The position numbers and the translations under genes are program-made. A stretch of 36,399 nucleotides of DNA from Candidatus Pacearchaeota archaeon (GTDB taxonomy: Archaea > Nanobdellota > Nanobdellia > Pacearchaeales > GW2011-AR1): contig JAGVXA010000011.1 in assembly GCA_018304025.1 (NCBI GenBank), positions 1 through 36,399 on the forward strand, read 5' to 3'. The notes below the pieces were generated by a model. The model worked only from the letters and a program-made list of their open reading frames with translations. It ran no database searches and was not told the origin of the DNA. This document shows positions 8,548 through 35,295 of this stretch, piece after piece; within the stretch, counting starts at the first letter, position 1, and each line of letters starts with the position of its first letter.

Positions 8548-8876
8548 AGAGCAGAGACTGTCAAGATAGAGAGATATGACAAAACTTTCAGTTTTATTAA
8601 TAATTCAAAATAATTATCTGAATTTGATTTCTCTTCGTTATGATGTGCCTTGGAGGTTTAAGACAAATTAAAAATATAACAAATTGAAGGGTTTACCCTG
8701 AGAAGTTTACAGTATCTAGAGAGCATATAATTTTTAGTATATAAATTCTATTCATTTAGGCACGCAATTGGACTTGCCAATTCTAGTTGCTGGCAAGTCT
8801 TATCGGTAAAAAATTTGCTTCGCAAATTTTCTGCGTGCCTAAATAAATATTTAAATAGAATATTCTTTTGAATTAA
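8548..8876. other. 329-bp intergenic region
   Basis: This gap holds no ORF I can support. It contains an imperfect palindrome at about 8603-8621 (TTCA...ATAATTAT...TGAA), a short AGGG-TTTA-CCCT hairpin near 8688-8699, the three-way-junction element at 8754-8844 and a TATA-like AATATTTAAATAG near 8846-8858 for the next gene. Confidence 0.6.
8754..8844. repeat. Three-way-junction inverted-repeat element (reference copy)
   Basis: A perfect 13-bp outer stem ATTTAGGCACGCA (8754-8766) / TGCGTGCCTAAAT (8832-8844) encloses two perfect 9-bp hairpins: GACTTGCCA/TGGCAAGTC (8771-8779, 8791-8799) and AAAATTTGC/GCAAATTTT with loop TTC (8810-8818, 8822-8830). The linkers are AATTG before the first hairpin and TTATCGGTA between them. 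The three nested units at 14281-14547 share these linkers and stem edges. The element ends only about 33 bp before a gene start, next to its TATA box. Confidence 0.85.
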
Positions 8877-14221: not shown

Positions 14222-14631
14222 ATAATTTTGTTTCTGAATGTAATTGGATGCTAATTGTAATAGATAAAATATAGTTGTTTTCGGCACGCAATTGGATTCG
14301 CAATTTTTTGTGGCGCGAGTCTTATCTTTAAAATTCGCTTTTGATGCGTCGCAATTGGACGCACTAAATCAATTTTCTCGGTGCGCAAATTGGACTTGCC
14401 TGTTCTTGTGGCTGGCAAGTCTTATTATTAACAGCTCACTCCGTTCGCTGGTGCGCACCGAGTAATTGCGTTCGGCTGTGCGTCTTTTCTTTAAAATTCG
14501 CTCCGCGAATTTAGCGACGCATCAACTCCGCAAATTTAGCGTGCCGAAGTGAATTTTCTGCGTCGCTGAAAATAATTTTGAGAGCGTGCTGAAGAACATA
14601 GTTTTATTAATTATCTTGAATAAATTTTGTT
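14222..14631. other. 410-bp intergenic region
   Basis: No gene is supported here. Most of it (14281-14547) is a nested inverted-repeat array. The remainder holds fragments related to the array (GCGTCGCTG near 14560, AGCGTGCTG near 14583) and ATTAATTATCTTGAAT just before the next gene, similar to the AAGATAATTATCTT palindrome at 28819-28832. Confidence 0.6.
14281..14547. repeat. Three nested three-way-junction inverted-repeat units
   Basis: Unit 1 has outer stem TCGGCACGC/GCGTGCCGA (14281-14289, 14539-14547), hairpin GATTCGC/GCGAGTC (14295-14301, 14315-14321) and a second stem AAATTCGC (14331-14338) / GCAAATTT (14530-14537). Unit 2 lies inside the loop of that second stem: GATGCGTCGC/GCGACGCATC (14343-14352, 14514-14523), GACGCAC/GTGCGTC (14358-14364, 14478-14484) and AAATTCGC/GCGAATTT with loop TCC (14494-14512). 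Unit 3 lies in the loop of unit 2's first hairpin: CTCGGTGCGC/GCGCACCGAG (14377-14386, 14453-14462) and GACTTGCC/GGCAAGTC (14393-14400, 14414-14421). All share AATTG and GTCTT linkers with 8754-8844. Confidence 0.85.
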
Positions 14632-21861: not shown

Positions 21862-22872
21862 ATGGAAGAGAAAAAATTTTCTGAGGAGAGGATTGAAAGA
21901 TATGAAAAAGCAGGATACAGAATTTTGGGAGAGCAAAAGCATTCGGCGATAAAAGTTTGCAGATGGGCGAAGGAATCTTTGAGGGGAAAAGGAGATTGCT
22001 ACAAGAAAATTTTTGGCGTGAAATCGCATAGATGCATTCAGATGACACCGACACTTAATCTTTGCAATTTTTCGTGCGGATTTTGCTGGAGGCCGTTTGC
22101 AGAGAATAGGCACAAAGCAATTCTGGATTGGGATTCTCCGAGCGCGATAATTGAAGATGCAATTAAATTTCATAAGGATGTTCTTGCTGGATTTGGAGGA
22201 AGCAAGTATGTTGCAAAGAAGAAATTGAAAGAAGCGATGCAGCCAGCGCATTTTGCTATTTCACTTGATGGAGAGCCGACACTATATCCACATCTTGCTG
22301 AATTAATAAATGAAATTAAGGCGAGGGGCTTTTCTGTTTTTATTGTCACGAATGGGACGATGCCTGAAAAGATTAAAGAAATTTTTTCTAAAGATGCGAT
22401 TCCGGATAATTTGTCTGTTAGTATTTATGCGACGACTCAAGAAGGATACCAGAATGTTACGAATTGCTCTGACGGAGATGTGCTTGAAAAAGTAAAAGAA
22501 TCTTTGAGTTTGCTCAGAAAATTTGAAAATTGCAGGACGAACATTCGGCTGACTTTGGTGAAGGATTTGAACATGGATGATGTTGAAGGTTATGCTTCGC
22601 TGATTAAAATTGGCGAGCCGAAATTTGTTACGATAAAAGGATATTCTCATTTGGGACATTCGCAGAAAAGATTGAAATTTGAACAAATGCCGACGATGGA
22701 AGAGCTTAGGGATTTTGCTCGGGAGATTTCTGAGAAGAATGGCTACTTGATTAAATACGAGGATGAATTGCGCAGGGCGATAATTTTAGTTAGAGATGAA
22801 GAAACTTGGGAGTGGAATAAAAAGAAGATTGCGGAGCAGGAAGAGAGATTTTTAGCTAGCGGAAAAAATTGA
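21862..22872 (+). CDS. taw1: Taw1, tRNA 4-demethylwyosine synthase (radical SAM)
   Basis: Taw1 uses pyruvate and SAM to build the tricyclic imidazopurine on m1G37 of tRNA-Phe. The radical SAM cluster is C68-X3-C72-X2-C75 in NLCNFSCGFCWR. A second set C33, C46 and C58 matches the extra 4Fe-4S cluster of this family. SLDGEPTLYPHLAELI and IKGYSHLGHSQKRL are characteristic. The length of 336 residues is normal. It starts directly at the bud32 stop, so the two tRNA-modification genes are one transcript. Confidence 0.93.
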   Translation: MEEKKFSEERIERYEKAGYRILGEQKHSAIKVCRWAKESLRGKGDCYKKIFGVKSHRCIQMTPTLNLCNFSCGFCWRPFAENRHKAILDWDSPSAIIEDAIKFHKDVLAGFGGSKYVAKKKLKEAMQPAHFAISLDGEPTLYPHLAELINEIKARGFSVFIVTNGTMPEKIKEIFSKDAIPDNLSVSIYATTQEGYQNVTNCSDGDVLEKVKESLSLLRKFENCRTNIRLTLVKDLNMDDVEGYASLIKIGEPKFVTIKGYSHLGHSQKRLKFEQMPTMEELRDFAREISEKNGYLIKYEDELRRAIILVRDEETWEWNKKKIAEQEERFLASGKN

Positions 22873-22883
22873 TTTGGGCAGAT

Positions 22884-22937
22884 AATTAGCGTGAAATTTT
22901 CGAGAAATTGCTTTCGCAATTTCCGAGAATTTATTCT
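22884..22937. repeat. Dispersed hairpin repeat, copy 1
   Basis: AATTAGCGTGAAA leads into GAGAAATTGC. The stem GAAATTGC/GCAATTTC (22904-22911, 22916-22923) has a 4-nt loop, followed by CGAGAATTT, which can pair with AAATTTTCG upstream. Two further copies are at 33151-33203 and 35242-35295. All lie between genes. This copy follows taw1 by about 12 bp. Confidence 0.8.
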
Positions 22938-33084: not shown

Positions 33085-33150
33085 TTTTTATTTTCGGAAG
33101 GAGAGTTTATAAAAATTGTTGTTGTTTTATTTCTTGTTATTAGAGGAGAG

Positions 33151-33203
33151 AATTAGTGTGATATATTCGAGAAATTGCTTGCGCAATTTCCGAGAATTTT
33201 GTG
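33151..33203. repeat. Dispersed hairpin repeat, copy 2
   Basis: AATTAGTGTGATA precedes GAGAAATTGC. The stem GAAATTGC/GCAATTTC (33171-33178, 33183-33190) has loop TTGC and ends CGAGAATTT. It lies between the divergent rpa and aEF1B genes, outside both promoters. Confidence 0.8.
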
Positions 33204-35197: not shown

Positions 35198-35241
35198 TTT
35201 ATTATAGTGGAGCGGAAGTTTATAATTTTTTTGTTTGGGAT

Positions 35242-35295
35242 AATTAGTGTGATAGAATAGAGAAATTGCTTGCGTAATTTCCGAGAGTTTAATTA
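35242..35295. repeat. Dispersed hairpin repeat, copy 3
   Basis: AATTAGTGTGATA precedes GAGAAATTGC; the stem is GAAATTGC/GTAATTTC (35262-35269, 35274-35281). The one changed base turns a G-C pair into G-U, so pairing is kept. It lies between minus-strand genes, downstream of the pilin-like genes. Confidence 0.78.

Follow-up and report, generated by a model that had tools for sequence, protein, structure and literature searches.

Mobile palindromes without a known enzyme are a long-standing puzzle, studied mostly in organelles; the family described here is archaeal. The organelle repeats (Volvox, Allomyces, the sponge RHE repeats and the yeast GC clusters) resemble it, in the descriptions drawn on here, as short, non-coding, intergenic palindromes whose structure is kept while the sequence varies (PMC2670323, PMC2800124, PMC4478555), and those of Volvox are described as inserted within one another (PMC2670323). 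The present elements differ in being three-armed, in having conserved unpaired motifs, in being archaeal and in being locked to the G-rich replication strand. A further difference lies in what is conserved: according to the sponge and yeast descriptions the stems are more conserved than the loops, whereas here the stems vary, both arms together.

Two described systems of transposition offer other parallels. The orientation of IS200/IS605 elements is reported to follow replication direction, with a folded single strand as the likely substrate (PMC5371812, PMC6006769). The archaeal family resembles these elements, and the miniature elements derived from them, in both respects, and differs in three: no Y1 transposase was found in the genome, there is an outer terminal inverted repeat, and copies are placed in hairpin loops. 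REP/REPIN sequences with TnpA-REP (RAYT) likewise reach many intergenic palindromic copies per genome, but the present element is a three-way junction of ~85 bp, no RAYT was found in its genome, and the GT[A/G]G foot is present in none of 33 un-nested copies (one of 33 if the element boundary is crossed).

Integron attC sites are recognised by their fold more than by their sequence, and one strand is preferred. Both features recur here; in contrast, the R-box motifs are absent (consensus RYYYAAC / GTTRRRY, in 0 of the 33 un-nested copies on either strand), and no gene cassettes were noted. In behaviour, the closest described systems are the organelle palindromic repeats, with IS200/IS605 as the published precedent for an orientation set by the replication fork (PMC5371812).

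Fold and distribution of the element

The DNA analysed (the window, 36,399 nucleotides) is contig C20 of a 992,424-bp, 29-contig archaeal genome (G000) with coding sequences for PolD DP2, an SRP54-type GTPase and a protein with a Gins51 domain. The element at 8754-8844 lies between a tRNA-Thr and the Gins51 gene. On the + strand, its outer stem pairs two 13-nt arms, 8754-8766 and 8832-8844, in 13 perfect base pairs. These enclose two hairpins. Hairpin A (8770-8800; arms 8770-8779 and 8791-8800, 11-nt loop 8780-8790, all +) comprises nine Watson-Crick pairs, 8771-8779 with 8791-8799, and a basal G8770.T8800 pair. Hairpin B (8810-8830, +; arms 8810-8818 and 8822-8830) has 9 bp and a TTC loop, and is the preferred position of nested insertions in other copies. 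Between the hairpins runs the unpaired linker TATCGGTAA (8801-8809, +); of the linker first read as GTCTTAT, the GTC belongs with the G.T pair to the stem.

The minimum free energy of 8734-8864 is -42.9 kcal/mol, against -20.9 +/- 3.0 in 200 dinucleotide shuffles (z -7.4). The fold thus bears out the perfect 13-, 9- and 9-bp stems with TTC and 11-nt loops of the original prediction, and none of the shuffles (0/200) folds as well, in agreement with its view that such an arrangement is very improbable in unselected DNA. The element had also been placed just before a TATA box. This holds for the TATA-like TTTAAATA at 8850, downstream of the element and 27 nt before the ATG of an 80-aa ORF; a second box, TATAAA, lies upstream (8740-8745, +), 26 nt before the AATTGG motif. 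No Rfam 15 family matched the junction element at its gathering score.

Searches of G000 gave 29 matches with blastn and 64 with a covariance model (E up to 0.1), the latter merging to 50 loci. The seed of this model (A3) was eight hand-picked units with 28 pairs, 12 of them changed on both sides. The search reaches copies beyond those named at the outset, with strong covariation. Of 61 matches, five were dropped by the E-value limit before alignment (A5), being weak antisense hits to palindromic copies; setting aside 17 of the 50 loci by eye (nested, truncated or cut) left the 33 un-nested copies. The family, ~80-90 bp long, has the three-way-junction architecture in tens of copies. The copy at 8754-8844, taken originally as the reference that defines it, belongs to a real family with this architecture, but scores 81.7 bits and ranks 13th of 64, the best reaching 105.

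Matches are confined to 13 of the 29 contigs (C1, C3, C4, C6, C7, C10, C13, C15, C19, C20, C21, C22, C25), and six 20-kb stretches of C9, C11, C12 and C24 gave none. Two junction elements, at C21:22073 and 22683, lie within one 575-aa ORF on the opposite strand, so intergenic placement is not absolute. Beyond this genome the distribution is narrow. Searches of 132 genomes across the order and 371 across the phylum returned matches only in G000 and a congener, G002; as they scored 34 and 13 candidates per genome, respectively, absence elsewhere is soft. When 84,980 species genomes were scanned with a pattern, eight matches came up; the only convincing one (L119, 44.3 bits with model R2) is in a Nanoarchaeota MAG. 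Two others (L118, L124) were rejected as family members at only 19.3 and 17.5 bits with model R1, and the remaining five gave no match. In the G002 and L119 copies CAATTGGAC-hairpin A-GTCTTA is retained and the outer stem is still complementary, with other stem letters. In the open-licence PMC literature, no report of this palindrome family was found.

Covariation, strand and nesting

Among 56 aligned copies (A5, an alignment fitted to model R1 and so leaning toward the R1 structure), 24 of 28 pairs have changed on both sides. Such changes fill 267 of 1398 cells, against a shuffle mean of 73.5, with few one-sided intermediates. An RNA fold is expected to tolerate G.U and not A.C. Outside one conserved G.T pair, the stem cells hold 1239 Watson-Crick, 26 G.T, 27 A.C and 71 other combinations. 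As G.T and A.C are equally rare, nothing indicates selection on an RNA fold, with the caveat that a fold important on both strands would also give this equality. For contrast, 16 tRNAs gave 28 G.T and 0 A.C, a comparison biased by the pairing rule of ARAGORN.

The stems also combine freely: the outer arm GCACGC occurs with six types of hairpin A, and the 56 copies hold 36 combinations. Together with the joint change of the arms, this means that whole stems are exchanged or that one arm serves as the template for its partner. Joint change of the arms seems to take place at the DNA level, with the stems shuffled as modules. The covariation does not have the appearance of RNA evolution: there is no excess of G.T over A.C, and stems are exchanged whole. 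The basal G.T pair beside GGA/TCT persists in 50 of 53 copies; like the unpaired CAATTGGA and TCTTATC, it has the look of a part recognised by its sequence. The family makes it testable whether DNA-level processes can produce strong covariation with no functional RNA involved, and is a caution for covariance-based RNA discovery.

Within each contig all copies share one strand, the G-rich one (13/13 contigs; nine +, four -). The sign of the GC skew agrees with the element strand in all 13 contigs, and local skew agrees at 49 of the 50 loci; the remaining one has a skew of -0.01. Genes flanking the 50 loci lie on both strands relative to the element (same/same 18, same/opposite 11, opposite/same 9, opposite/opposite 8; four loci lack one neighbour), so transcription does not set its orientation. 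Rather, orientation tracks replication direction, as read via GC skew with the origin unmapped, and the rule repeats in G002 (4/4 fetched contigs) and in L119. By convention the G-rich strand is taken as the leading one, and the element sequence would then be presented by the lagging-strand template.

The nested array of the window has three units, all on the + strand. Unit 1 (14280-14548) has outer arms 14280-14289 and 14539-14548, and its hairpin B is interrupted by unit 2. Unit 2 (14341-14525; arms 14341-14352 and 14514-14525), lying in that loop, has its own hairpin A interrupted by unit 3 (14377-14462; arms 14377-14386 and 14453-14462), which occupies the hairpin A loop. The linkers reported as common to 8754-8844 and the array are confirmed for these units. 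Elsewhere, units with the arm TTGATGCG[T/C]YGC are in 13 of 13 cases preceded by the 5' arm of a hairpin B, and a matching 3' arm follows at least nine of them. Their right flank is CTC in most, their left flank CTC in some and CTT or CTG in others. Other units sit in the loops of hairpin A and of a second repeat, D2, and at C4:8650 the inner and outer units have an identical hairpin A. IS200/IS605 elements insert 3' of a fixed tetra- or pentanucleotide without target duplication; the flanks of the present elements are AT-rich or T-rich, with no fixed tetranucleotide seen, and CTC is possibly duplicated in the nests. That the un-nested copies are themselves insertions into older palindromes was rejected: over 24 copies, the two flanks pair no better than permuted ones, with 23 of 200 permutations doing as well.

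D2 is a second one-strand hairpin family, with three copies in the window (22872-22932, 33139-33199 and 35230-35290, all +); elsewhere in the genome its loop hosts junction units. It follows the same strand rule (paired motif CGAGAAATT..AATTTCCGAG, 19 vs 0). The junction family has the dispersed similar copies, terminal inverted repeats and nests that characterise a palindromic mobile repeat or MITE-like element. The family and architecture first proposed are borne out; the replication-strand rule and insertion into hairpin loops are additions to that interpretation.

Movement, transcription or growth in place

The family is real, dispersed, strand-locked and nested, and most likely mobile at the DNA level. 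In the account judged probable, if modestly so, it consists of non-coding mobile palindromic elements whose insertion is coupled to replication and whose arms are kept complementary by fold-back copying. This account is supported by the single orientation per contig, by nesting in hairpin loops and by the six congener stretches without a match at this locus (below). Against it stand the divergence of the species that hold the 'empty' sites, a CTC duplication that is not uniform, the restriction of copies to 13 of 29 contigs, the lack of a Y1 match in G000 and a fixed-spacing TATA that a DNA element alone does not explain.

Fourteen of the 33 un-nested copies have TATAWA in the interval -19..-15 relative to the outer stem, where ~0.17 would be expected (genome-wide rate 0.001 per position), and one more un-nested copy has it elsewhere within 60 nt. 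In genes of G000, TATAWA lies 27 nt before the ATG; in the element, the implied start is the A of AATTGG, just past the outer 5' arm. Such a flank could serve as a promoter or reflect target choice; of all the evidence it speaks most strongly against a pure DNA element, and it keeps alive the reading of the copies as multicopy non-coding RNA genes, in which un-nested copies would be transcribed from their own TATA and hairpins A and B, perhaps with the junction, would fold under selection. The confinement of TATAWA to a 5-nt window, its recurrence at about the same spacing in three of seven G002 copies, the fit of AATTGG to the gene spacing and the strong covariation all agree with such genes. 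However, the predicted start would yield an RNA without the outer stem; the stems show none of the wobble preference seen, with its stated bias, in the tRNAs; nested copies have no TATA; no Rfam family matches; and RNA genes would not be expected to keep to one replication strand as strictly as all 50 loci do, the window's two tRNAs being on opposite strands. Balanced in this way, RNA genes are an unlikely explanation.

Growth in place would need neither movement nor transcription. In E. coli, template switching with quasipalindrome correction is described as strand-biased and as making inverted repeats more perfect (PMC7202029). Slippage and template switching during replication could build palindromes on the spot and copy one hairpin into another, which would suit the shared hairpin A at C4:8650 and the joint change of arms with few one-sided intermediates. 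Such growth is nonetheless distinctly unlikely as a full account: it explains neither why 50 dispersed loci share the conserved unpaired CAATTGGA and TCTTATC nor the TATA spacing, and arm correction should have removed the basal G.T pair. Very unlikely, too, is a non-autonomous derivative of a known system, whether IS200/IS605 or REP (Y1 HUH) or integron attC (tyrosine recombinase). Replication-strand orientation and structured single-stranded ends are a hallmark of IS200/IS605 in the published accounts (PMC5371812, PMC6006769), archaeal integrons have been reported (PMC9668308), and the enzymes are at hand in the genus: Y1 genes in 8 of 10 genomes, G002 included, and tyrosine recombinases in all 10. 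Yet Y1 (PF01797) has no match in G000 (genome 88% complete), no R2 match adjoins the eight Y1 loci examined in relatives, including that of G002, and the foot and boxes of the REP and attC systems are lacking from the 33 un-nested copies. On the first two of these grounds Y1 was rejected as the mobiliser. Reverse transcriptase was rejected likewise: the sole RVT_1 gene looks, from its translations, like part of a diversity-generating retroelement, and its contig holds no element.

If the elements move by replication-coupled insertion, the process would involve: folding of the G-rich strand into the junction when exposed as lagging-strand template at the fork; action in trans of a putative enzyme on the folded junction, through the unpaired CAATTGGA and TCTTATC; joining of the element into single-stranded DNA at the fork, preferentially in the loops of hairpins already folded; and the copying of one arm from its partner by fold-back (template switching). 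Within such a mechanism, joining into folded loops would fix the orientation and produce nests, and fold-back copying would keep the arms complementary and let them covary without selection on an RNA. A fuller version is put forward tentatively, being doubtful as a whole: a replication-coupled mobile palindrome would form its three-way junction on the lagging-strand template, be inserted into loops by a putative enzyme outside the Y1, attC and REP systems, and carry a built-in promoter; the junction RNA that this promoter fires could use its 3' arm to pair with the strand of its own promoter. Whether a folded single strand moves at the fork becomes testable in an archaeal family that is fully strand-locked to replication, nests loop within loop and shows, by count, a lack of wobble pairs.

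Sites in relatives and neighbouring repeats

Six of six congener stretches with the tRNA-Thr and the Gins51 gene gave no R2 match; the congeners are diverged species, with proteins 31-78% identical, and the sites count as candidate empty sites. A second comparison was possible at C13:21001. Here, the corresponding gap is short in G001 and G008 (~150 bp), contains an element of its own in G002 and a different multi-hairpin block in G006. The G002 element in the same gap could be due to a hot spot or to vertical inheritance.

The block in G006 belongs to a modular multi-hairpin repeat family (L110:1275-1430) with 37, 23 and 4 matches in G006, G009 and G005, respectively. The gap it occupies is the one in which G000 and G002 have a junction element, and the block is repetitive in G006 and G009. 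The strand rule does not extend clearly to the G006 family and was dropped for it: strand and skew are discordant in C3, C18 and parts of C8 and C14, and the short matches are near-palindromic.

Several other repeats were seen in passing. In the window, a dispersed repeat of ~160 bp without a strong palindrome (8559-8717) lies directly upstream of the element, with copies 78-84% identical in C9 (two), C10, C11 and C16, and an array of 19-bp tandem repeats occupies 246-416. A ~345-bp repeat, 83-92% identical (L068:11609-11955), has further copies at C13:72306 and in C15 and C24. A probable diversity-generating retroelement (L087, G000 C11:26564-30055) comprises two adjoining ORFs: one is that of the reverse transcriptase and contains a template-like stretch rich in Asn, the other ends in a variable-region-like match. 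In G002, near position 1500 of L064 (C13), hairpin A units (TTGGAC..GTCTTAATT) stand in tandem without a full junction.
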